A stretch of DNA of 38,449 bases from Chloroflexota bacterium (GTDB lineage: Bacteria; Chloroflexota; Dormibacteria; CF-121). The position numbers were made by a program, and so were the translations under genes. The notes beneath the pieces are model-generated. The model ran no database searches, was not told the origin of the DNA, and worked only from the letters and a program-made list of their open reading frames with translations. Positions 6,200-19,960 of this stretch are shown here, piece by piece. Positions within the stretch are counted from its first letter, which is position 1, and each line of letters begins with the position of its first letter. The stretch spans positions 4,518 through 42,966 of the forward strand of contig VBEE01000041.1 in NCBI GenBank assembly GCA_005881715.1. The letters run 5' to 3'.

Positions 6200-7372
6200 T
6201 CAGCCGGCCTGGCGGACAGCGTCGGCGAGGACCTCAACGCCCTCGTCGAGCTGGGCGTCATCGATCAGGATCGAGGGAAGAAACCGAATCACGGTGCCGC
6301 CGCCGGGCAACGCCAGCACGCCGCGCTCCTGCATCGCCTTGATCACGGGTGTCACGGGCTTCTTGAGTTCGACGGCCAGCATCAGGCCGCGACCACGGAC
6401 CTCGCGGACCTGGGTAAGGCCCAATCCGCGGACGCGTTCCTGAAAGCGGTCTCCGGCGTGCTGCGCCCGACGGTGGAGTCCCTCGTCAGTAAGGACGCGC
6501 AGGGTCGCGGCTCCGGCGGCGCAGACCAGCGGGTTGCCGGCAAAGGTGCTGCCGTGGCTGCCCTTGGGGACACGGTCACTGACGGCTTCGGTCGTCACGG
6601 TGACGCCCAGCGGCAGGCCGTTGGCGATCGACTTCGACAGGCAGAGGATGTCGGGCATGATGTCCTCGCGGCTGAAGGCGAAGACCGCGCCAGTCCGGAA
6701 TCCCGTCTGGATCTCGTCACAGATCAGTAGGCTGCCGTATGCGTCGCATCGCTCGCGGATGCCTTTGAGATAGCCGTCGGCCGGCACCCGAACCCCGCCT
6801 TCGCCCTGGATCGGCTCGATGATCACGGCCCCGACCGAGTCGTCCAGCACCTTGTCCAGCGCATCGAGGTCATCGAACGGGACATGGCGCACACCTTCCA
6901 ACATGGGGGCGAACGGATCGCGGTACTTTGCGTCGGCGGTAGCGGCGAGGGCGCCAAAGGTCCGCCCATGATAGGCGCGATGCGTGGCAACGATGCCGGT
7001 TCGGCCGGTGGCGACGCGCGCGTATTTCATCGCGGCCTCGACCGCCTCCGCGCCCGAGTTCCCGAACGAGATCCGGGTCAGCGGCGGCGGCAGGAGCGCA
7101 CCCAGCGCCTGCAGGAACTCGTCGCGCGCCGGCGTGTCGAAGCTCTGGTGGGCGTTGGTCAGCCTGGCGGCCTGATTTGTGATGGCGGCCGTGACCTCCG
7201 GATGGCTGTGACCGAGAAGGTTGACGCCGTAGTTGGTCATCAGGTCGAGATATCTGCGATCCCGGTCATCCCACAGGTACGAGCCTTCGCCGCGAACGAG
7301 CCTGAGCCCCCGCCCGGCATGCAACGGAATTGGACTGAGCCGCACGTGCGTGGTCGTCAGGTCGTGACCCAT
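6200..7372 (-). CDS. lysJ: LysW-gamma-L-lysine / LysW-L-ornithine aminotransferase (acetylornithine aminotransferase family)
   Basis: PLP class III aminotransferase motifs (ISFGNSGAEAVEAAMKYAR, LLICDEIQTGFRTG, GSHGSTFAGNPLVCAA); last gene of the lysW cluster. Confidence 0.9.
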   Translation of the reverse strand: MGHDLTTTHVRLSPIPLHAGRGLRLVRGEGSYLWDDRDRRYLDLMTNYGVNLLGHSHPEVTAAITNQAARLTNAHQSFDTPARDEFLQALGALLPPPLTRISFGNSGAEAVEAAMKYARVATGRTGIVATHRAYHGRTFGALAATADAKYRDPFAPMLEGVRHVPFDDLDALDKVLDDSVGAVIIEPIQGEGGVRVPADGYLKGIRERCDAYGSLLICDEIQTGFRTGAVFAFSREDIMPDILCLSKSIANGLPLGVTVTTEAVSDRVPKGSHGSTFAGNPLVCAAGAATLRVLTDEGLHRRAQHAGDRFQERVRGLGLTQVREVRGRGLMLAVELKKPVTPVIKAMQERGVLALPGGGTVIRFLPSILIDDAQLDEGVEVLADAVRQAG

Positions 7373-8151
7373 GTGCCGGCTCCTTCAAAGGCTCGCGTCA
7401 GCGGGTGCTCGCCGCGGCCGTCGAGCAGGCCGACCGCCTGGATGCCTCGACGGATCGCCTGGCCTGCCGCCCGGAGCTTGACTCGGGCGCGACCCTTCCC
7501 GTATTCGGCCATGCCCTCGATCTCCTCCAGATGAATCAGTGGAATCACACTCCGCTCGTCACTGACGTCGCGCATGAACCCTGGGGTGTCGGCGAAGATC
7601 AGCAGGCGCTCGGCCTGAATCGCCGTGGCGATCTCCATCGCCAGCCGGTCACCGTCAACGTTGATCGCGACGCCCTCATGGCTGATGCCCGGCGGCGTCA
7701 CGACCGGCAGGAAGCCATTGTCGAGCAGCAGGCGTAGGAGCTTCGGTTCGATCTTCTCGATGCTGCCGCTGTGGTCCCCGTGCAGCATTTTGACCTTGCC
7801 GGCCTCCTGGATCCGCAGGTCCGGCTTGCGCCGGCCGATCGCGATCCCACCATCCATCGCGGTCAGGCCGACGGCGTTGGCGCCGAGGGCCCGCAACCGC
7901 TCCACAATGCGCTTGTTCTGCTTTCCCGCATACGCCATAAGGAAATGATCCATCGTGGTTGCGTCGGTGAAGCGGCTGACCTCGCCGCGCTCCGACGTCA
8001 CCATCCGCGGGGGATGGCCAAGCCGCTCGGACAGGTCGTTTAATTCCTTATTCGCGCCATGAACCATTACGAGCGGTTCTTTGCACGCCGCGACATCCTG
8101 CAGCAACGGGTCAAGGTCCGTGAGGCTGCCGCCGATCTTGATGACGAGCAT
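7357..8151 (-). CDS. lysZ: LysW-aminoadipate/glutamate kinase (acetylglutamate kinase family)
   Basis: MLVIKIGGSLTDLDPLL...VHGANKELNDLSERLG...INVDGDRLAMEIA; AAK-family signature. Start set to the internal ATG at 8151. Confidence 0.9.
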   Translation of the reverse strand: MLVIKIGGSLTDLDPLLQDVAACKEPLVMVHGANKELNDLSERLGHPPRMVTSERGEVSRFTDATTMDHFLMAYAGKQNKRIVERLRALGANAVGLTAMDGGIAIGRRKPDLRIQEAGKVKMLHGDHSGSIEKIEPKLLRLLLDNGFLPVVTPPGISHEGVAINVDGDRLAMEIATAIQAERLLIFADTPGFMRDVSDERSVIPLIHLEEIEGMAEYGKGRARVKLRAAGQAIRRGIQAVGLLDGRGEHPLTRAFEGAGTWVTT

Positions 8152-8153
8152 CT

Positions 8154-9209
8154 TCAGATCGGATAGAGGCCGGAGAACTCGAGCCCGGTTCGCTCGTCCC
8201 AACCAAAGCGAACATTCACCGCCTGGACGGCCTGCCCGGCGGCGCCCTTCATCAGGTTGTCGAGGGCGCTCATCACCACTACCCGCCGCGAATGCGGGTC
8301 TCGTTCGAAGCCGACGTCGCAGTAGTTCGTGCCCGAGAGGATCTTCGGGTTGGGATAGCGGTGGATCCCTTGCGACTCCTTAACGATTCGCATGAAGGGC
8401 TCATCCGCGTAGGCGGCGCGATAGATCTTCCACAGCGCCTTCTCGTCGAGGTCATCGTTGAGAAAGACGTGGGCGGTCGTCAGGATTCCGCGGACGGCCT
8501 CGACCGCGGTCGCGGAGAAGGCGATGCTGGGGCCGTGGCCGTTGGGTGAATTGAGGCCGAGCTCCTGGATGATCTCCGCGGTATGACGATGCGAGGTGGG
8601 GGCGAACGAGCGCATCTCGCCGCTGCGGTGCGGGTGATGCGATGCAGGCCCTGCCTCCGCGCCTCCGGCGGATGACCCCGTCTTGCCTTCGATCACGATC
8701 GGCATCGAGCGATCGACCACACCGGCACGGGTCAGCGGATACAGAGCGAGGATGGCGGCGGTGGCGAGACAGCCGCCGGCCGCGAAGCGATCGGCCTTGC
8801 GGAGTTCGTCGCGGTGCAGCTCCGGCAGGGCGTAGGTGAAGTCGCCAAGCAACGTCGGCTTGGGGTGTTCCCACCCGTACCACGTCGGGTACTGGCTCGG
8901 GTCGCGGAGCCGGAAGTCGGCAGAGAGATCGACGATGGTCGGGGCGAGCGACTGCAGTTGGTCGATCTCGCGGCTGGTCTGGCCGTGCGGGAGCGCAAGA
9001 AAGAGCACGTCAACCGGCTGGAGGGAGGCGCGCGTCTGGAACTTCAGCTCGGTGCGGCGGCGCAGATGCGGGTGCACGCTGTGCACGAACTTCCCACCCA
9101 AACGCTCGGAGCTCACCTGGGTCACCTCGACCTCGGGGTGCGACAGCAGCAGGCGGAGCAACTCACCGCCGGCGTAGCCAGCACCACCGACGACCGCTGC
9201 CCTTTTCAT
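8154..9209 (-). CDS. lysY: LysW-aminoadipate/glutamate semialdehyde dehydrogenase (ArgC family reductase)
   Basis: MKRAAVVGGAGYAGGELLRLLLSHPEVE...AAGGCLATAAILALYPL (catalytic Cys); ArgC-like. Confidence 0.92.
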   Translation of the reverse strand: MKRAAVVGGAGYAGGELLRLLLSHPEVEVTQVSSERLGGKFVHSVHPHLRRRTELKFQTRASLQPVDVLFLALPHGQTSREIDQLQSLAPTIVDLSADFRLRDPSQYPTWYGWEHPKPTLLGDFTYALPELHRDELRKADRFAAGGCLATAAILALYPLTRAGVVDRSMPIVIEGKTGSSAGGAEAGPASHHPHRSGEMRSFAPTSHRHTAEIIQELGLNSPNGHGPSIAFSATAVEAVRGILTTAHVFLNDDLDEKALWKIYRAAYADEPFMRIVKESQGIHRYPNPKILSGTNYCDVGFERDPHSRRVVVMSALDNLMKGAAGQAVQAVNVRFGWDERTGLEFSGLYPI

Positions 9210-9216
9210 CGGCCGG

Positions 9217-10290
9217 TCAGCCGGCGAGCTGGTTGAGGGCTGCGGTCAGGACATCGACGCCGCGCTCGAACTCGGCGAGATCGATCGCCTCGTTAGGCGT
9301 GTGATCGAGCTTGGAATCGCCCGGGCCGTAGGCGAGGGTCGGGCAGCCCCAAACCGGTGCCAGGATGTTCATATCCGAGGTTCCGGTTTTCATTTTGAAC
9401 CGTGGCGTGCCACTGCCGTCACGGATGCCCTTGAGGAAGGCACGCACCAATGGCGTGTTCTTCTCGGCACGAACGGCGGCATCGGCGTACTCGAAGCGGA
9501 GTTCGGCGCCGTCCGCCCAGGCTTCGAGCTGCTGCTGAAGCGCCGGCACATCGAAGTTCGGCGGCAGGCGAAAGCCGACCGTCATGGCTGCGGTGTCGCG
9601 GAAGCCATCATGGTCGGCATGGAATCGCAGAATGCGGGCGTCGAGCCGTTCGAAGCTGCCGGAACCCTTGCCTTGCCCGGCGGCGTGATCCTGGACCCGC
9701 CGAATGAAGGCGATCGCCGTGTCGGCCGCGCTCTCGTTGGGTCCGGCGCCGTGGCCCATGGGTTGCGAGAGCCGGTAACGCAACTTGAGGCTGCCCTTGT
9801 AGCCGAGCGTCACAGCGTCCCATCCGCTCGGCTCGAGCACGATCAGCTGGTCCGGTGGGCGCCGGCTCGTGAGGTGCCGGGCCCCGCGTGAGCTGCCCTC
9901 TTCCTCGACGGCGCCGATCACCGTAAAGCGATACGCCGCGCCCGCTGGTTGCCGGGCCACTGCCGTGATGGCCGCGGCCAGCGGTCCCTTGGCGTCGACC
10001 GCGCCGCGGCCGAAGAGGCGGTCTCCCTCGCGCCGCACCGGAATGAAGCCAGGGACCGTATCGATATGCCCGAGGAGCAGCACCTCGCGTGGCCCACTTC
10101 CCCAGAAGGCGACGACATTGCCGGCTTCATCGCGCCGAGCGGCAAACCCCATCGATCGCAACCTTGATACCAACCACTGACCCAATTGGCGCTCCTGCGT
10201 CGATGGGCTCGGAATCGAGAGCATCTCCTCGAGCAGCTCGATGCCGGTTTCGGTAACGGGCTCGGTTTCGGAGCGCAGCGCGGTGATCAC
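9217..10290 (-). CDS. lysK: LysW-lysine/ornithine hydrolase (M20 peptidase family)
   Basis: [11 protein letters not shown]...[15 protein letters not shown]...[15 protein letters not shown] metal-binding motifs; within the lysW cluster. Confidence 0.9.
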
Positions 10291-11141
10291 GCCGGTACTG
10301 CCTCCAGCTCGCCAACGCGAAGGACGTGATCGACGATCCGGCCCGGGATGTCGATTCCGGTGGTCTGGATGCTATTGCGGAACTCCATGGTGTAGTTGAC
10401 CTCGCTGACGACCAGGCCGTCCGGGTGCTCGAGCAGGTCGATCGCCAGCACGCCGCCGCCGACGGCTCGGGCTGCGGCACGGGAGAGGCGGTCGATCTCG
10501 GGCGTCACCGGGCAGTTGCGCGCCCGGCCGCCGCGCGCCGTATTTGTGATCCAGTGCGACGACTCGCGGTAGATCGCACAGATGGTCTCGTCGCCCACCA
10601 CGAAGCTGCGGATGTCGCGCGCCGGCTTGTTGACGTATTCCTGGATATAAAAGATGGCGTGCTGGTAGGAGCCGAGCGTGTCCTTGTGCTCGAGCAGCGC
10701 CTCGGCGGCCTCGCGATCGGAGATCTTGGCCAGCAGGCGTCCCCACGAGCCGACCGCCGGCTTGAGCACCACCGGATAGCCCAGCGTCTCGATCGCCACG
10801 AGCGCGGATTCCGGGGTGAAGGCAATCAGGGTGCGGGGGCTTGGCACGCCGGCGGCGGTAAGCGCCGTGGTGGTGTTGATCTTGTCGCCGCAGGTGAGGG
10901 CGACTTCGTAGGTGTTCACCGTCGGGACGCCCGCCTGGTTGAGGATGCGCAACGCATAGAGCGCCCGCGAATGGTGCAGGCAACGCTCGAGCACGACGTC
11001 GTAGCGGGCCGGCTCCGCAGCCAGGTCGAAGACCAGCTCGCGGTCATCGATCCGCTCGATCTCGAGCCGCTGCCGGGCGAAGGCCTCGAACAGCAGCTTC
11101 TCCTCGGCCCGGATGCGGGAGCAGAGAACGCCGATTCTCAC
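10287..11141 (-). CDS. lysX: LysW-aminoadipate ligase LysX (RimK/ATP-grasp family)
   Basis: [66 protein letters not shown] start directly after the lysW stop. Confidence 0.9.
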
Positions 11142-11142
11142 C

Positions 11143-11322
11143 TCACTCGCCCCAGTCTTCCTCTTCCTCGGGCGCCAGCTTGAGCTCGACCGGATTGCGC
11201 TCGACGACTTCCAGCTCGGCTCCGCAGTCGGCGCAGGGCACGATCTCGCCCTTTTCGACGTCCGCCGCGAGCTTGACGTCGGCCTCGCATTCCGGACACT
11301 TCGCGGTGACGACGGTTGCCAT
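11143..11322 (-). CDS. lysW: LysW amino-group carrier protein
   Basis: 59 aa [59 protein letters not shown]: Cys4 zinc-finger-like site and the diagnostic C-terminal EDWGE. SD GAGGAGG. Missed as a separate ORF by the track. Confidence 0.96.
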
Positions 11323-11819
11323 CACGACACCTCCTCGATCGCGGCCCAGCCGCGTGTTTTGATCAGGTCGATCAGCGTCCCGGCTTCCATGATGGCGACC
11401 GCCACCGGACCCGGTGTTTCCCCCTGGAACATCTTGCCATTGACAGCGATGCCGCCGGAATGGATGTCGATCGAAACGGGGTCGCCGTCCTCGATGGCGT
11501 CGTAGATCGCATCGCACTGGATGACCGGCAGTCCGATATTGATCGCATTGCGGTAGAAGATGCGGGCGAAGCTGCGCGCGACCACCGCCTGGATGCCAGC
11601 CGCCTTGATCGCCATCGGGGCGTGCTCGCGAGAGCTGCCGCAGCCGAAGTTGCGGCCGCCCACGATCACGTCGCCCGGCTGGACGCTTGCGGCGAAGTCG
11701 GGCCGGGCCTCGATAAAGCAGGCCTTGCCCAGGGCCGTGGCGTCGGTCGTCACGTTGTAGCGGCCCGGGATGATCGCGTCGGTCGAGATCCCATCGCCGA
11801 ACTTGAAGATCCTGGCCAT
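11322..11819 (-). CDS. Homoaconitase / 3-isopropylmalate dehydratase small subunit
   Basis: MARIFKFGDGISTDAIIPGRY...GGRNFGCGSSREHAP; LeuD/HacB signature. Stop overlaps the lysW start. Confidence 0.9.
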   Translation of the reverse strand: MARIFKFGDGISTDAIIPGRYNVTTDATALGKACFIEARPDFAASVQPGDVIVGGRNFGCGSSREHAPMAIKAAGIQAVVARSFARIFYRNAINIGLPVIQCDAIYDAIEDGDPVSIDIHSGGIAVNGKMFQGETPGPVAVAIMEAGTLIDLIKTRGWAAIEEVS

Positions 11820-13051
11820 CAGTTGAAGCCTCTCGGATCGGTGATGGCGCCGGCCAGCGCGGACACCGCGGCGACCGCCGGGTTGGCCAGGTAGATCTCG
11901 GCCTGCGGGCTCCCCATCCGGCCGGCGTAGTTCCGGTTGCTGGTGGAGAGCGCGCGCTCCCCGGGACCGAGCACCCCGTGCTGCCGGCCGAGGCACGGAC
12001 CGCAGCCGGCATTCATCACCAGCGCGCCCGCTTCCATGAACGTCTGGATATAGCCTCGGGCGAGCGCCTCCATGTAGATCTGCTTCGAGGCCGGCACCAC
12101 GATCGTGCGGGTGCGGGGATGGACCTGTCGCCCCTCGAAGTAGCCGGCGACGATCGCCAGGTCTTCGATCCGGCCGTTGGCGCAACTGCCCACGAAGACT
12201 TCGTCAAGCTGGGTACCCTCCACCGTACTGAGGTCCTGGACGTTGTCGATGGCCGGCGGACACGCGATCTGTGGCTCGAGCGTCTGCGCGTCGACCTCGA
12301 CGACACTGCGATATTCGGGTGCCACCGGGTGCAGGTCGGCCACTTCGGCGTCGCCCAGGTAGATGCGGGTCTGCTCGTCGGGCTCGCACAACCCGGCTTT
12401 TCCGCCGAAGTCTACCGTCAGGTTGGCGAGGGTGAGGCGTTCGTCCACGCTCATGGCTTCGACCGCCTCACCTCCCCATTCCACCGCCAGGTAATTGGCG
12501 CCTTCGGCGCCCAGCCTGCGGATCACCTGGAGTGCCAGGTCCTTGGGGAAAATGCCCGGCGGCAGGGCGCCGCGCAGGTTGATGCGGATCGTTTCCGGCA
12601 CCCGGAACCAGGTCCGGCCGGTGGCGAAGGTGACCGCAATGTCGGTCGATCCAAAGCCCGCCGCAAAGCAGCCCAGTGCGCCGTAGGTGGTGCTGTGCGA
12701 ATCGGCGCCCACCACGATGCCGCCGGGACGGATGAACCCTTTCTCCACCATGAGTTGATGGCAGATCCCTTCCTGGAAGACGTGGGTGACGCCGTACTCG
12801 GTGGCGAAATCGCGCACCAGTTTGTGCAGGCCGGCCGAGGCGACTGTGTTGGCGGGAAGAATGTGGTCGAAGACCAGGATCACGCGCTCCGGGTCCCAGA
12901 GTGGAACCTCGAGATGGCGGAAGGCCTCGATTGCCAGCGGTCCGGTGACGTCGTGGGCCATCGCGTAGTCGACCGGCGCGACCACGATCTCACCGGCATG
13001 AACATCCCGTCCGAGCCGTCGCGAGAAGATCTCTTCGGTCAGGGTTCCCAT
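11819..13051 (-). CDS. Homoaconitase / 3-isopropylmalate dehydratase large subunit
   Basis: MGTLTEEIFSRRLGRDVHAGEIV...VGADSHSTTYGALG...VFVGSCANGRIEDL...NAGCGPCLGR; LeuC/HacA Fe-S Cys motifs. Confidence 0.92.
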   Translation of the reverse strand: MGTLTEEIFSRRLGRDVHAGEIVVAPVDYAMAHDVTGPLAIEAFRHLEVPLWDPERVILVFDHILPANTVASAGLHKLVRDFATEYGVTHVFQEGICHQLMVEKGFIRPGGIVVGADSHSTTYGALGCFAAGFGSTDIAVTFATGRTWFRVPETIRINLRGALPPGIFPKDLALQVIRRLGAEGANYLAVEWGGEAVEAMSVDERLTLANLTVDFGGKAGLCEPDEQTRIYLGDAEVADLHPVAPEYRSVVEVDAQTLEPQIACPPAIDNVQDLSTVEGTQLDEVFVGSCANGRIEDLAIVAGYFEGRQVHPRTRTIVVPASKQIYMEALARGYIQTFMEAGALVMNAGCGPCLGRQHGVLGPGERALSTSNRNYAGRMGSPQAEIYLANPAVAAVSALAGAITDPRGFN

Positions 13052-13061
13052 GTGTTCTCTC

Positions 13062-14189
13062 CTAAGCCGGGACCGAGCCCCGGAGCAGATCATCGAGTTC
13101 GTCATTGCTCAGCGGGCCGGCGTCGGCGCGCCGCTTGACTTCGGCGGTGAGGGTTCGCACTTCGTGATCCGTCAGCGTCAGTCCCAGCGTCGTCGCGCGA
13201 TGCGCGATCGCGTGGCGGCCCGTCAGGCGGTGGCCGGTCATGACGGTCCGCTCGAGGCCGAAGCGGGCGGGATCGAAGATCTCGTAGCTGGACGGGTCGT
13301 TTAGCACCGCGTTGGTGTGCATGCCCGCCTTGTGGTGAAAGGCGGTGCCGCTGGTAATCGATGCGTTGAATGGAACGTCGATCCCAACCATGTTGGCGAC
13401 CATCCGGTCGAGCTCGGGAAGGATCTCGAGCCGGTAGGGCGCAACCAGGTCCGGCCTCACGCTCAGCAGACGGGCGATCATCCCGCTGAGCGGCACGATG
13501 CCGTTGCGCTCGCCGATCCCCAGAACCGTCGTGTCGATGTGGGTCGCGCCCGCCTCGAGGGCCGCGAAGGCGTTGGCGATGGCGCAGCCGGTGTCGTTGT
13601 GGGCATGGAACTCGATGTCGCAGTCGACCGCCTTGCGCACCATCGAGACCAGCTCGAAGACCTGGTTGGGAGTGGCGATCCCGACCGTGTCGGCGAGCCC
13701 GACCCGCTGCGGATGCAGGCGGTCGATCGCCTGGTAGACGCGCAGCAGGTCGCGCGGCTCTGATCGGAAGGAGTCCTCGCTGCTGAACCGCACCTCGAGC
13801 CCCTGCGACTGGATGTAGCGGACGACGTCGGTCCCGGTCTCGATGATCTCGTCGACCGTCTTGCCGTGCGAGAAGGCACGCATCGCGGATGAGGTACCGA
13901 AAAGGACGTCGATGCCGTCGGCGCCCGTGCCGACCGCCACTCGCGCGTCGTCCAGGTGGCAGCGCACGTGGGTCAGGACCTTCGCCTGCAGCGGGAGCGC
14001 GGCCACCGTTCGCAGGTCGGCCTCCGACTGCGGCGAGGCGCAGGGGGAAGTCAATTCGAGGTAGTCCACGCCGAACTGATCGAGCATCTGCGCGATCGCG
14101 ACCTTCTGCGCCGGCGTGAAGTGGGCCGGGGCGAACTGTTCGCCCTCCCGGAGCGTCGATTCGATGATCTTGAACGCTCGTATGGTCAT
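13062..14189 (-). CDS. Homocitrate synthase
   Basis: MTIRAFKIIESTLREGEQFAPAHFT...VEFHAHNDTGCAIANAFAALEAGATHIDTTVLGIGERNGIVPL; closely resembles the Thermus homocitrate synthase type. SD GGAGGTGCC-ATG. Confidence 0.92.
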   Translation of the reverse strand: MTIRAFKIIESTLREGEQFAPAHFTPAQKVAIAQMLDQFGVDYLELTSPCASPQSEADLRTVAALPLQAKVLTHVRCHLDDARVAVGTGADGIDVLFGTSSAMRAFSHGKTVDEIIETGTDVVRYIQSQGLEVRFSSEDSFRSEPRDLLRVYQAIDRLHPQRVGLADTVGIATPNQVFELVSMVRKAVDCDIEFHAHNDTGCAIANAFAALEAGATHIDTTVLGIGERNGIVPLSGMIARLLSVRPDLVAPYRLEILPELDRMVANMVGIDVPFNASITSGTAFHHKAGMHTNAVLNDPSSYEIFDPARFGLERTVMTGHRLTGRHAIAHRATTLGLTLTDHEVRTLTAEVKRRADAGPLSNDELDDLLRGSVPA

Positions 14190-14205
14190 GGCACCTCCGA
14201 AAAAT

Positions 14206-14235
14206 AAAAAGCCTTCGTCCACCGGGACGAGAGGC
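14206..14235 (-). terminator. T-box regulated terminator hairpin
   Basis: GCCT(C)TCGTCC-CGGT-GGACGAAGGC then TTTTTATTTTT on the minus strand; competes with the T-box antiterminator. Confidence 0.9.
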
Positions 14236-14520
14236 CTTCTCTCGTGGTACCACCCGACTTTGCCGTCCTCTCGCGAGAACGGCCTCTTCGAGTCCGCGGC
14301 GTGCCGCCTGAAGACTCCAGCCCGATCACGGGGGCCACCCGGCTCGGCCTACTGCCCCTCGGTTCCTCCCGCTCTGGCGGGTAAGGTGGGGGTTCGACCG
14401 GCGGCTCCGAGGCCTTTTTCGGCGGTGCCCTGGACCCTCCTTCTCAGCTTTCGGAGGTTCTCTGTCGTCCCAGCGGCCGCGTACTCGCCCTCATCAACGC
14501 CTTTGCGTATGAACTTGTTG
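14206..14520 (-). promoter_or_regulatory. T-box leader riboswitch (probable lysine specifier) controlling homocitrate synthase
   Basis: Minus-strand RNA carries GAGGGCGAGUACGCGG (stem I AGUA S-turn type), AGAGAACCUCC..GGAGGGU distal region, specifier region CGAAAAAGG, stem III CCGUUCUC-GCGA-GAGGACGG, T-box core AAGUCGGGUGGUACCACGAG and terminator GCCUCUCGUCC-CGGU-GGACGAAGGCUUUUU. Confidence 0.92.
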
Positions 14521-14526
14521 GCCGGA

Positions 14527-14556
14527 ACGATACGCGTCATGGTGCCCGGATGTCAA
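14527..14556 (-). promoter_or_regulatory. Sigma70-like promoter for the T-box/homocitrate synthase operon
   Basis: Minus strand TTGACA-N18-TATCGT, starting 13 bp after the stop of the upstream ligase gene and just upstream of the T-box leader. Confidence 0.7.
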
Positions 14557-14569
14557 GCCGGCTCAGCTA

Positions 14570-15418
14570 TTAGGCGACGGCCTCGGTCGCGCCCACCTGC
14601 TGGACGTAATCGATCACGTGGTCGGCGACGGGTATCCCGGTTGCCGCCATGAAGCCATGGAATTCGGGCGTGTAGTTGAGCTCGTTGACGAGCAGGCCGT
14701 CGGGGTGCTCGAGTAAGTCGACGGAGAGAAATCCACCCCCGACCGCCGCGGCCGCCTTACGGCAAAGCTGATCGATCTCGGGCGTGACTTCGCACACGGA
14801 CGCCGTACCATTGCGGGCCGTGTTCGTGATCCAGTGGTCGGAACTTCGGTAAATGGCGCCGATCGTCCGGTCCCCCACGACGATCGCCCGGATGTCGCGC
14901 TCGGGCTTGTTGACGTACTCCTGGATGTAAAAAATACCGTGCTGGTAGGAGCCCAACGTCTCCTTGTGCTCGAGCACGGCCTCGGCAGCGTCGCGGTCGT
15001 TGATCTTCGCCAGCAGCCGCCCCCAGGAGCCGACCATCGGCTTGAGGACCACCGGATAGCCCATCGCCTCGATTGCTTCCAGGGCGGCTTCCCGGGTGAA
15101 GGTCACGACAGTCTTTGGTACCGGCAGGCCGGCCCGCGCCAGCGCCGCCGTGGTCAGGATCTTATCGCCGCAGATGCGGGCAACTTTCGCCCGGTTGACC
15201 GTGGGCACCCGGGCGACATTCAAGAGGGTCAGGGCATAGAGCGAGCGGCCGTGGTGGATGGAGCGGTCGAGCACCACGCCAGGATGGGGGAAGCCATTGC
15301 CGATCGAGAACTTGATGCGATCCTCGTCGAGCCGCTCGAAGGGGACGCGGCGACGGCGGAGCGCCTCGAACAACGCCTTCTCTTCGACGCGGACACGAGA
15401 GCAGAGGATGCCGACCAT
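14570..15418 (-). CDS. argX: Second LysX/ArgX-type ATP-grasp ligase (putative glutamate-LysW ligase ArgX)
   Basis: [19 protein letters not shown]...[22 protein letters not shown]...[19 protein letters not shown]; paralog of the 10287-11141 ligase with a changed substrate-loop motif; divergent from argG. Alternative start at 15436. Confidence 0.75.
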
Positions 15419-15484: not shown

Positions 15485-16729
15485 ATGCTGGCAGTGAAGA
15501 GCAAGTTACTGGAGAAGATCGACGCGACGCCGGTGAAGACGGCGAAGAAGGTCGCCCTGGCATATTCCGGCGGATTGGACTCATCCCTCTGCGCCGTCCT
15601 GGCGAGAGAGAAGTACGAGGTCGAGGACCTCCTCGCGATCACCGTCGACGTGGGGCAGGGGCAGGACGAGATGGAGGCGGCGATCGCAAAGGCCAAAGTG
15701 CTCGGCATCACCCCGATTGTCGTCGACGCGAAGGAGGAATTTGCCAACCTCTGGCTGTCGAAGGCGATCCAGGCAAACTCCAGCTACGAGGGCTATCCCG
15801 TGTCGACCTCGATGACCCGCCAGCTGATCGCCGCGAAGATCGCTTCCCTGGCGCTCAAGCTTGGCTGCGACGCCATCATGGAAGGCAGCAGCGGCAAGGG
15901 CAACGACCAGTACCGAATGCACAACGTCTTCAAGCTCTTCGCGCCGCAGCTCAAGGTCCTGGTCCCGGTGCGCGACTTCGATCTGACCCGCGGCGAGGAA
16001 GAGGAACTGTCGAAGGAGCTGGGCATCCCCATCACCGAGGTGATGCAGGGCGGCGATGACAAGACACTGTGGTGCCGCAGCCTGGCCTCCGGGGCAGTCG
16101 GGCTCAACCAGCCGATTCCGGATCACGCCTGGCTCTGGTGGAAGTCGGCTTCGAAGGCGACGTCAACGCCGACGCAGATTTCCGTCACCTTCGAGCATGG
16201 CGTGCCGGTCGCGCTCGACGGGACCGAACGCACGCTGCCAGAAATCGTCTCGAAGCTCAACGTGATCGCCGGGAGTCATGGAATCGGGAAGATCGACATC
16301 TTCGAGGACGGCATCATGGGCCTGAAATCGCGCGAGCTCTACGAGGCGCCCGCGGCCACGGTCCTCCTCAAGCTGCATCACGACTTGGAGCAGTTCTGCC
16401 TCACCAAGGAGGAGCTCGACTTCAAGGCGTTCGTCGATCAGAAGTGGGCTTACCTCGTCTATCACGGCGCCTGGTTCAGCCCGTTGAAGGAGGGGCTCGA
16501 CGCCTTCATCCAGACGACCCAGGCCCAGGTGAGCGGGACCGTGACCGCCACCCTGTTCCACGGGACGATCGACCTGGACGCGCGGCAGAGCGATCACTCG
16601 CTGTTCTTCCCGGAGATCCGCGGGCTGCAGAGCCGGAGTTTCAACCAGCAATTGTGTGGGCCGGCGGCGCAGATCGCCGGGCTACCGTGGGAGGTTCTGT
16701 CCAGGCGCATGTCGAAGGTCTCGCACTGA
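15485..16729 (+). CDS. argG: Argininosuccinate synthase-like protein, divergent copy (ArgG1)
   Basis: KVALAYSGGLDSSLCAVLA, EGSSGKGNDQYRMHN, KSRELYEAPA; SD AGGAGG and ATG at 15485. The upstream extension in the ORF track is spurious. Confidence 0.85.
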   Translation: MLAVKSKLLEKIDATPVKTAKKVALAYSGGLDSSLCAVLAREKYEVEDLLAITVDVGQGQDEMEAAIAKAKVLGITPIVVDAKEEFANLWLSKAIQANSSYEGYPVSTSMTRQLIAAKIASLALKLGCDAIMEGSSGKGNDQYRMHNVFKLFAPQLKVLVPVRDFDLTRGEEEELSKELGIPITEVMQGGDDKTLWCRSLASGAVGLNQPIPDHAWLWWKSASKATSTPTQISVTFEHGVPVALDGTERTLPEIVSKLNVIAGSHGIGKIDIFEDGIMGLKSRELYEAPAATVLLKLHHDLEQFCLTKEELDFKAFVDQKWAYLVYHGAWFSPLKEGLDAFIQTTQAQVSGTVTATLFHGTIDLDARQSDHSLFFPEIRGLQSRSFNQQLCGPAAQIAGLPWEVLSRRMSKVSH

Positions 16730-18102
16730 GCCAGCAGCCCTGGGGCGGTCGCTTTAGCGAGGAGCCGGATCCTTTGATCGAGCAGTTCACGCGATCATTC
16801 GAGGTCGACCAACGGCTCTTCCGCGAGGACATCGCCGGCGGTCGCGCCTGGGCGAAGGCGCTGGTCGGGGCTGGGGTGCTGACCGCCGAAGAACAATTGC
16901 GCATCGACATCGCTCTCCGGGAGATCGGCACCGAGTTCGAGAAAGAGCTCGCCGCGGGTGAGGGCAGGGTGGCGGCCGCGGAAGACATCCACATGGCGGT
17001 CGAGAAGCGATTGCAGGAGAAGCTCGGCCCACTGGGCGGCAAGCTCCATACGGGGCGGAGTCGCAATGACCAGGTCGCCGTAGACCTGCGGCTCTTTGTC
17101 AGGGCTGCTGGTGGACGGTTGCTCGAGGCGATCGCGTCGCTGGCGTCGGCGCTGGTCGCCCGCGCCGAGGAACACATCGACACGGTAATGCCCGGCTACA
17201 CGCACACCCAGCGCGCGCAACCCGTTCTGCTGGCGCATCATCTCCTCGCCTACGTCGAGATGCTTCGCCGGGACGCGGGCCGGACCGAGGATGCGTTGCG
17301 CCGGGCGGACGCCTCGCCGCTGGGTGCGGGCGCGCTCGCCGGTAGCGGTTTCCCGATCGATCGCTCCGCACTGGCCCACGAGCTCGGGTTCGCCACCGCC
17401 AGCGCCAACTCGCTCGATGCCGTGGCCGACCGAGACTTCGTGCTCGAGCTGCTGGCCGCCTGCAGCATCGCGATGATTCACCTCTCTCGACTCTGCGGCG
17501 AGATCGTGCTGTGGACCAGCGTCGAGTTCTCCTTCGCGTCGCTCCCTGACGCGCTTGCCAGTGGCAGCTCGATGATGCCGAACAAGAAGAACCCCTGCGC
17601 CGCCGAGCTGGTGCGAGCCAAGAGCGGACGGGTCGCCGGCGATCTGATGAATCTCTTGATGGTGCTCAAGGGTCTTCCGCTCGCCTACAACCGCGACCTG
17701 CAGGAGGACAAGGAGGCGCTGTTCGACGGCGTCGATACCACGCTTGCCTGTCTTCAGGTCACGGCGAGACTGGTTGAGGGCCTGCAATTCGACCGCAACG
17801 CGCTGCGCACCGCCGCCCTCGATGGACATACCCTTGCGACCGAGCTCGCCGATTACCTGGCCGCCAAAGGCATGCCGTTTCGCGACGCGCATCATCTGGT
17901 TGGCCGGATGGTTGCCCACGCCATCGCCACCGGCCGTGGCTTGGAGTCGTTCAGCCTCGCCGAGCTCCAGGAGTTTTCGCGGCTCTTCAGCGCCGACATC
18001 GTCGATCATCTGACCCTGGAAGGGGCGCTCAGATCACGCGATGTCCTCGGCGGCACGGCGCCGCGACGGGTCAGGGAGGCGCTGGCGCATGTCAAAGCGT
18101 AA
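16726..18102 (+). CDS. argH: Argininosuccinate lyase (probable CTG start)
   Basis: SQQPWGGRFSEEPDPLIEQFTRSF...GSSMMPNKKNPCAAELVRAKSGR fumarase-superfamily signature. No in-frame ATG near the N-terminus; CTG at 16726 overlaps the argG1 TGA. Confidence 0.92.
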   Translation: MSQQPWGGRFSEEPDPLIEQFTRSFEVDQRLFREDIAGGRAWAKALVGAGVLTAEEQLRIDIALREIGTEFEKELAAGEGRVAAAEDIHMAVEKRLQEKLGPLGGKLHTGRSRNDQVAVDLRLFVRAAGGRLLEAIASLASALVARAEEHIDTVMPGYTHTQRAQPVLLAHHLLAYVEMLRRDAGRTEDALRRADASPLGAGALAGSGFPIDRSALAHELGFATASANSLDAVADRDFVLELLAACSIAMIHLSRLCGEIVLWTSVEFSFASLPDALASGSSMMPNKKNPCAAELVRAKSGRVAGDLMNLLMVLKGLPLAYNRDLQEDKEALFDGVDTTLACLQVTARLVEGLQFDRNALRTAALDGHTLATELADYLAAKGMPFRDAHHLVGRMVAHAIATGRGLESFSLAELQEFSRLFSADIVDHLTLEGALRSRDVLGGTAPRRVREALAHVKA

Positions 18103-18571
18103 GCGTCAGGAGGCGATCCTGGCGATCATCGCCAAACACCAGGTCGCGACCCAGGAAGAGCTCGTCGAGCGGCTGCATCGCGCCGGAATCCTGACCACGC
18201 AGGCGACCGTTTCGCGCGATATCGCGGAGCTCGGTCTGATGCGGGTCGCCGGGCCGGAGGGTCATTACATCAAGCCCGAAGACGGCCTGGGCGCTGCCTC
18301 GACGGCTGGCCGGGAGGAGAAGCTGCGCCGGCTGCTCCGCGACCTTCCCCTGACGGTCCGGCGCGGACAGGGGATCGCGGTACTGACCACCACGCCAGGC
18401 TCGGCCAGCCCGCTCGCGTCCGGGATCGACGGCGCCGGCTGGCCGGAGGTGCTCGGAACGGTGGCGGGCGACGACACCATCTTCGTCGCGCTCACCCTCC
18501 AGCCCCGCGCCTACAGCGGGCTCGCCCAGCGGCTGGCTCTGCTGGGCGCGTACGTCCAGCCCGAAGACTAG
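18089..18571 (+). CDS. argR: Arginine repressor
   Basis: MSKRKRQEAILAIIAKHQVATQEELVERLHRAGILTTQATVSRDIAELGLMRV is an ArgR DNA-binding domain; the C-terminal domain is also present. Confidence 0.92.
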   Translation: MSKRKRQEAILAIIAKHQVATQEELVERLHRAGILTTQATVSRDIAELGLMRVAGPEGHYIKPEDGLGAASTAGREEKLRRLLRDLPLTVRRGQGIAVLTTTPGSASPLASGIDGAGWPEVLGTVAGDDTIFVALTLQPRAYSGLAQRLALLGAYVQPED

Positions 18572-18610
18572 CACCCCATGAAATCTTCGATTCCCTGGGG
18601 ACCCCACTAG

Positions 18611-19960
18611 ATGCCCGAAAAGATCGTCCTCGCCTATTCCGGCGGCCTCGACACGACGGTCGCGGTGCGCTGGCTGACGCAGACCCGCGGCTTCGAGGTG
18701 ATTGCGCTTACGGTCGACCTCGGGAGCCAGCCCAAGCTTGAGGTCATCCGGGAGCGTGCCCTCGCCGCGGGCGCCGTCCGGGCCTACGTGCTCGATGCCC
18801 GCACGCCCTTCGTCGAGCGGTTCTGCTGGCCGGCGCTCAAGGCCGGCGCCCTCTATCAGAGTCAGTACCCGCTGGCGACCGCGCTTGGGCGTCCCCTGAT
18901 CGCCCAGTTGCTGGTCGAGGCCGCCGCCCGGGAGGGGGCGACCTGGGTGGGGCACGGCTCGACCGGCAAAGGCAACGACCAGGTTCGCTTCGAGGTCGCC
19001 GTCGCCGCGCTCAGTCCCCAGCTCAAGGTGCTCGCGCCGCTCCGGGATGGGATGGCCATGACGCGGGAGCAAGAGGTCGCCTACGCGAGCGCCAACAAAC
19101 TGCCCATTGAGGTCAAGCCCGAGTCGCCGTACAGTGTGGATGAGAACCTGTGGGGGCGCTCCATCGAGGCCGGGATCCTCGAAGATGCTCTCCTCAAACC
19201 CCCCGAGGACGCATTTGTATGGACCTCGTCGGTGGACAACGCCCCCGCCAACTCCGCCGAAATCGAGCTCAGCTTCGAACAGGGCATCCCCACACGACTC
19301 AACACATATCCCTCCCCCTCTGGGGGAGGGCAGGGTGGGGGGGTCGCCCTGGTCGACGAGCTGAATCGGCTTGGCGGCCTCCATGGGGTCGGCCGGATCG
19401 ACATGATCGAGGACCGCTTTGTGGGGATCAAATCGCGCGAAATCTATGAAGCCCCCGCGGCGGTCATCCTCCACGCGGCCCACCGCGCCCTGGAAGAGCT
19501 CGTGCTCGACGCCGAGACCGCGCGCTTCAAAGCCTCAGTTGCCGCGGAGTATGCGCGTCTCGTCTACCAGGGCAAGTGGTTCACCAGCCATCGGCGCGAC
19601 CTCGACGCATACGTCGAGAGCACCCAGCGCGCCGCCACCGGTCGGGTGCGCATCAAGCTCCACAAGGGAACGGCGCAGGTGATCGGCCGGTCGTCGCCCT
19701 ACTCGCTCTACCGGCCGCAGCTCGCCACCTACTCATCGGGCGATCAGTTCGACCATCAGGCCGCGGTCGGTTTCATCAAGCTGGTCGGCCTGCCGGTCCG
19801 GACGCAAGCCCAGGTGCAGGGGGCGGCCGCGACCGAGCCGCTACTTGAAGACGATCGCCATGTTGTTGAAGTCGGCCCAGGACCGCTCGAAGGCGGCCTT
19901 GCTGAACCAGTACTGGCTCCCACTGTGCCAGGGGTCGTTGACGCGGACCTGCGTCGCTGA
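18611..19960 (+). CDS. argG: Argininosuccinate synthase (ArgG2), with a low-complexity insertion and an extended C-terminus
   Basis: MPEKIVLAYSGGLDTTVAVRWL, GHGSTGKGNDQVRFEV, ENLWGRS, SPYSLY, SSGDQFDHQAAVGFIKLVGLP canonical motifs. Confidence 0.92.
   Translation: MPEKIVLAYSGGLDTTVAVRWLTQTRGFEVIALTVDLGSQPKLEVIRERALAAGAVRAYVLDARTPFVERFCWPALKAGALYQSQYPLATALGRPLIAQLLVEAAAREGATWVGHGSTGKGNDQVRFEVAVAALSPQLKVLAPLRDGMAMTREQEVAYASANKLPIEVKPESPYSVDENLWGRSIEAGILEDALLKPPEDAFVWTSSVDNAPANSAEIELSFEQGIPTRLNTYPSPSGGGQGGGVALVDELNRLGGLHGVGRIDMIEDRFVGIKSREIYEAPAAVILHAAHRALEELVLDAETARFKASVAAEYARLVYQGKWFTSHRRDLDAYVESTQRAATGRVRIKLHKGTAQVIGRSSPYSLYRPQLATYSSGDQFDHQAAVGFIKLVGLPVRTQAQVQGAAATEPLLEDDRHVVEVGPGPLEGGLAEPVLAPTVPGVVDADLRR
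19310..19343. repeat. G/C-rich palindromic element inside the argG2 coding sequence
   Basis: CCCTCCCCC-TCT-GGGGGAGGG perfect 9-bp arms followed by CAGGGTGGGGGGG; encodes PSPSGGGQGGG in-frame. Confidence 0.75.

Follow-up and report, generated by a model that had tools for sequence, protein, structure and literature searches.

T-boxes, including T-boxes with a lysine specifier, have long been known, and the class I transcriptional members with a long stem I (Rfam RF00230) have in common an AGUA/GAA S-turn, apical T-loops, a stem III, a UGGN bulge and an antiterminator that competes with a terminator. In the 2008 survey by Wels et al. (PMC2494555), the targets of Lys T-boxes were lysS and a lysine permease in the Firmicutes, and the T-box targets in the Chloroflexi were ileS, trpE and trpB in Dehalococcoides. 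The other described system close to this locus is the LysW-dependent lysine and arginine synthesis of Sulfolobus (PMC10433800), in which both amino acids are made on a single carrier by a common set of later enzymes, LysX and ArgX being distinct ligases. Here we describe a T-box leader in front of a LysW operon from a soil member of the Chloroflexota that has not been cultured. The window, meaning the whole stretch of DNA analysed, is 38,449 nt long, and all coordinates refer to it unless another locus is named; both the T-box and the LysW operon are on the minus strand.

The leader (14220..14506) matches the full RF00230 model (1-219) with 63.1 bits (E 2e-13) in a permissive scan, albeit under the Rfam gathering score of 93, which is why a default Rfam scan of the window reported no T-box; the leaders of congeners reach scores of up to 91 bits. 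In the phylum, T-boxes were found at E <= 1e-4 in 359 of 399 Chloroflexota genomes, with at least one above the cut-off in 212/399. The leader runs up to the ribosome-binding site of homocitrate synthase, the first gene of the LysW operon (GGAGG and the ATG at 14187..14198), and the U-run of the terminator touches this site. The initial annotation had read a T-box core, a terminator, the AGUA of stem I and its distal region from the minus strand, as well as the 3' side of the specifier loop, and each of these was found at the place given. Both the covariance search and a comparison of homologous leaders, in which the architecture is kept with compensatory changes in all 18 same-family leaders found, bear out that reading, and the presence of a T-box leader upstream of the LysW operon is confirmed.

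The leader begins just after a promoter (TTGACA-18-TATCGT, 14527..14556) with 10/12 matches to the consensus and 0.0 expected in shuffles, which is placed just 3' of an argX-like gene and is conserved as GCTTGACA...TATnGT in 17/17 aligned family leaders; this dedicated promoter was missed in the initial annotation. Stem I (14403..14501) consists of five helices, supported by compensatory changes between 12 Lys leaders and one Asp leader. It carries the AGUA of the S-turn (14482..14485, invariant in alignments A1 and A2), the conserved apical interdigitated T-loop motifs AGAGA (14459-14463) and GCUGAGA (14442-14448), together spanning 14442..14463, and the 3' side of the specifier loop, GAAAAAGG (14413-14420). 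The stem II / IIA-B region (14284..14402, limits approximate) was placed from the Rfam alignment and from conserved columns among the leaders, and contains a further AGUA S-turn (14346-14355) and an F-box-like CCGTGATCGGGC (14320-14331), and is followed by stem III (14262..14283). The T-box core GGGUGGUACCACG (14243-14255) includes the bulge UGGUACC (14246..14252), of which UGGU (14249-14252) is complementary to the ACCA end of tRNA-Lys. The antiterminator (14223..14256) is made of helices CGGG/CCCG and ACGAGAG/CUCUCGU (fold -13.4 kcal/mol), and the intrinsic terminator (14206..14235) reads GCCU(C)UCGUCC-CGGU-GGACGAAGGC-U5 with one bulged C (fold -13.8 kcal/mol). CUCUCGUCCC is common to terminator and antiterminator, and the two folds are mutually exclusive.

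These structures are kept in the relatives. Over the 18 family leaders, the stem I, stem III and antiterminator as drawn have 99.1% of their cells paired when taken together, and both partners are changed in 7 pairs; for stem III this is 98.9% of cells and for the antiterminator >99%, with two pairs changed on both sides in each. The terminator has 96.1% of cells paired and zero covariation, since it hardly varies. For stem I, the comparison across two families plus the Asp leader (13 sequences) gave 11 pairs changed on both sides, with the helix C-U-G-G/C-C-A-G weak across families (78% of cells paired). For the structure drawn on the 18 family leaders, none of 500 shuffles reached the observed values, and versions slid by 1-3 columns paired in 38-49% of cells; the structure is therefore more than chance.

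Downstream of the leader lies a complete aminoadipate/LysW pathway of nine genes. These encode homocitrate synthase of the LysS type (13062..14189; TIGR02146, 445.6 bits, above cut-off), the large and small subunits of the homoaconitase family, HacA (11819..13051; NF001614, 545.5 bits) and HacB (11322..11840, with the true start a few codons inside; TIGR02087, 196 bits), the LysW carrier protein with a C-terminal EDWGE (11143..11322; TIGR01206, 63.5 bits, above cut-off), LysX with the LysX-type motif EFRNS (10287..11141; TIGR02144, 341 bits), the [LysW]-lysine hydrolase LysK (9217..10290; NF003367, 420.5 bits), LysY of the ArgC family (8154..9209; TIGR01850, 381 bits), the [LysW]-aminoadipate kinase LysZ of the ArgB family (7357..8202; NF010659, 324 bits), and a member of the LysJ aminotransferase family (6200..7372; NF042418, 380 bits, below the strict cut-off). 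The genes either overlap or lie no more than about ten bases apart, making a single nine-gene transcript likely. LysW synthesis is probably the only route to lysine, as DapA-like proteins in the family genomes gave sub-threshold matches only, and the window's genome has one LysA-like protein below the cut-off.

Upstream of the T-box and outside its control there is a further ligase gene of the LysX/ArgX family (14570..15418, minus strand), which has EFHGF where LysX has EF(K/R)NS. In Sulfolobus, Gly-Phe versus Asn-Thr at this motif distinguishes ArgX from LysX (PMC10433800), and we refer to the window's gene as ArgX-type. Divergent from it are argG, argH and argR together with a second, different argG (15485-19960, plus strand), and the roughly 66 bases between the ligase and these arg genes may hold ArgR sites. 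ArgJ was absent from 12/12 family genomes tested, and a second ArgB-type or ArgC-type match above the cut-off was present in 0/12; where contig positions are comparable (e.g. G000, G001, G002, G003), the ArgB-type and ArgC-type genes adjoin inside the LysW operon. Class relatives outside the family contain ArgJ and a canonical DapA. The gene content is thus that of a bifunctional lysine/arginine LysW system, with an ArgX-type ligase and without separate ArgB, ArgC and ArgJ, and a shared LysW pathway is likely from the genes present, in which the lysine switch would control the shared enzymes but not the ligase specific to arginine. We infer that arginine is produced by this route and that the LysW enzymes may act on both substrates. 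With LysZ and LysY the sole members of their families and no ArgJ found, this switch probably governs, besides lysine synthesis, enzymes on which arginine synthesis depends. If so, arginine-specific argX, argG, argH and argR would lie outside the switch and the enzymes that arginine probably requires behind it, and the cell would have to either couple both amino acids or leak. The earlier reading of this DNA had remarked neither on the upstream ArgX-type gene nor on a probable use of the downstream enzymes in arginine synthesis as well.

With regard to the amino acid sensed, the 3' strand of the specifier loop precedes the helix CCUC and reads GAA-A-AAG-G, in which we assign the specifier to AAG (14414..14416). 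In 21 leaders from two families AAG never changes, with the base 5' of it being A or C; this region is GAA-C-AAG-G in G016, GAA-A-AAG-A in the f4 family, and GAA-U-AAG-A/C in G323 and G437. The same register is found in the Asp T-box before aspS (GAA-C-GAC-C) and in the Chloroflexota Met T-boxes (GAA-N-AUG), and the AAG frame is also the default frame in TBDB, 2-4 nt from the bulge end (PMC7778990). AAG is a lysine codon, which matches the lysine operon downstream with a chance of 2 in 61 for a random sense codon. A Glu (GAA) specifier was ruled out, as GAA is the S-turn strand; a 12-base search pattern made from the specifier loop lacked specificity. The earlier proposal of a lysine-specifier T-box before an aminoadipate/LysW operon is supported in both its parts. 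It had named AAA and AAG as Lys codons in the loop without choosing between them, and the leaders of relatives point to AAG. We consider the leader to be a transcriptional T-box with a full-length stem I, specific for tRNA-Lys(CUU), with a probability of about 0.9.

The nearest alternative keeps the lysine tRNA as ligand and shifts the specifier by one base to AAA, to be read by tRNA-Lys(UUU). AAA directly follows GAA and has a purine next to it, it is by far the commoner specifier among the Lys T-boxes of TBDB, themselves among the rarest there (0.87 for AAA vs 0.13 for AAG, PMC7778990), and tRNA-Lys(UUU) is the sole lysine tRNA found in the window's own MAG, which is 89% complete and in which tRNA-Lys(CUU) was not found. 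However, the AAA frame turns into CAA in G016 and into the stop codon UAA in G323 and G437, with AAG staying in place next to A, C or U, and this together with the TBDB frame makes AAA improbable. The tRNA-Lys(CUU) is present in seven congeners (G002, G003, G005, G006, G007, G009, G011) with A as discriminator, which fits the pairing of the bulge UGGU with an ACCA end.

A somewhat smaller chance still is given to overlapping specifiers, with AAG for tRNA-Lys and AGG one base on for tRNA-Arg(CCU), by which arginine starvation would also be sensed. The window's genome contains a tRNA-Arg(CCU) with discriminator A, lysine and arginine are probably both made through the operon, alternative frames could permit multi-tRNA specificity according to TBDB (PMC7778990), and the +1 frame yields an Arg codon in all 18 leaders of the family (AGG, from AAGG) and in those of f4 (AGA, from AAGA). 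Such a pattern is nevertheless obtained automatically, as a purine after any AAG yields AGR, and two other families have AGC at this position; the +1 frame also abuts the stem directly, so that no base would remain on the 3' side of the specifier. Least credible of all is a degenerate relic or a chance resemblance to a T-box, without present function: while the score below the Rfam gathering threshold is in line with this, the promoter, specifier, structure and position are conserved in four genera of the family.

From the tRNA-Lys(CUU)-specific leader we infer tRNA binding, a response to charging and termination in the cell. Transcription would start at the leader's own promoter (14527-14556), which follows the argX-like gene closely. 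In cells well supplied with lysine, the charged tRNA-Lys may dock on stem I via AAG/CUU, and as its 3' end cannot seat, CUCUCGUCC would pair into the terminator and transcription would stop before homocitrate synthase. When lysine is short, the ACCA end of uncharged tRNA-Lys would pair with UGGU and the antiterminator would hold, allowing all nine LysW operon genes to be transcribed. With the ArgX branch on one side of the tRNA-Lys switch and one LysW enzyme set for lysine and arginine on the other, lysine status could gate arginine synthesis, a cross-pathway control by one tRNA, and in the strongest form of this idea the loop also offers the Arg codon AGG one base on; we regard such control as possible, at slightly less than even odds.

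We also looked at the distribution of such leaders in the other genomes. Lys T-boxes precede homocitrate synthase in families f1, f4 and f59 (G240, G365), with G030 and G062 among the genomes containing one, and the same is seen in G072, where the gene is partly readable and was recognised by its readable N-terminus. In f46 (G417, G437) they precede LysX, and in f76 (G323; L238) a Lys (AAG) T-box is found before dapA of the diaminopimelate pathway. When other Chloroflexota, Dormibacterota and Acidobacteriota were scanned at their homocitrate synthase loci, the T-box core motif was absent, which pointed to a restriction of Lys T-boxes to two families. This idea was dropped, because the stem I covariance model matched Lys T-boxes in further families. 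The Lys T-boxes of f4 (L016, L030, L113) lack a U-run, and for at least two of these three leaders folding suggests that the ribosome-binding site is masked instead, so that this version may act on translation.

Several T-boxes for other amino acids were also observed. The family of the window has a second T-box (L002 1501-1616 (G000:C59), L126, L115, L118) before a gene for a small conserved protein and, mostly, also an acetolactate-synthase-like enzyme. In genus g1 this has an ultrashort stem I, whose loop CUUACUCA probably offers Leu CUC, and the ribosome-binding site is hidden by a helix in L002 and L126; in genera g2 and g4 the stem I of the apparently orthologous leader is long, and its terminator ends in a U-run; judged from the leaders, this looks like a recent change from transcriptional to translational control within one family. 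The Asp T-box (L112 1501-1725, G072) has GAA-C-GAC-C, a UGGC which fits a discriminator G, and an aspS-like ORF downstream. Similarly, Met (AUG) T-boxes with an 8-nt specifier-loop strand (L242, L245, L250, L251, L252, L254 and others) are located before acyltransferase-like (metX) or threonine-synthase-like genes in the Chloroflexota.

According to the initial annotation, no T-box is known to control a LysW pathway, and our search of the open literature agrees with this, as no published T-box joined to homocitrate synthase or to this LysW pathway was found there, with key T-box reviews lying outside the search; one candidate prior report (PMC5584792) was discarded, since 'lysW' there is an unrelated transporter. 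The LysW operon thus appears to be a new target, although such leaders may be listed in TBDB without comment, and the range of T-box control is hereby widened to LysW-dependent lysine synthesis, in more than one family of the Chloroflexota. Compared with class I T-boxes in general, the window's leader is GC-rich and longer, and has an extra base between GAA and the specifier (an 8-nt 3' strand), as do the Asp and Met T-boxes of the phylum. With the Lys T-boxes of the Firmicutes (PMC2494555) it shares the lysine specifier, whereas the targets there are a ligase and a permease and here a biosynthesis operon; with the Dehalococcoides T-boxes known since 2008 (PMC2494555) it shares phylum and RNA class, and differs in amino acid and targets. 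Finally, the window's genome resembles Sulfolobus (PMC10433800) in having one carrier and later-enzyme set with separate LysX and ArgX, but here the system is bacterial, and its lysine half and the shared enzymes are placed behind a putative tRNA-Lys switch.
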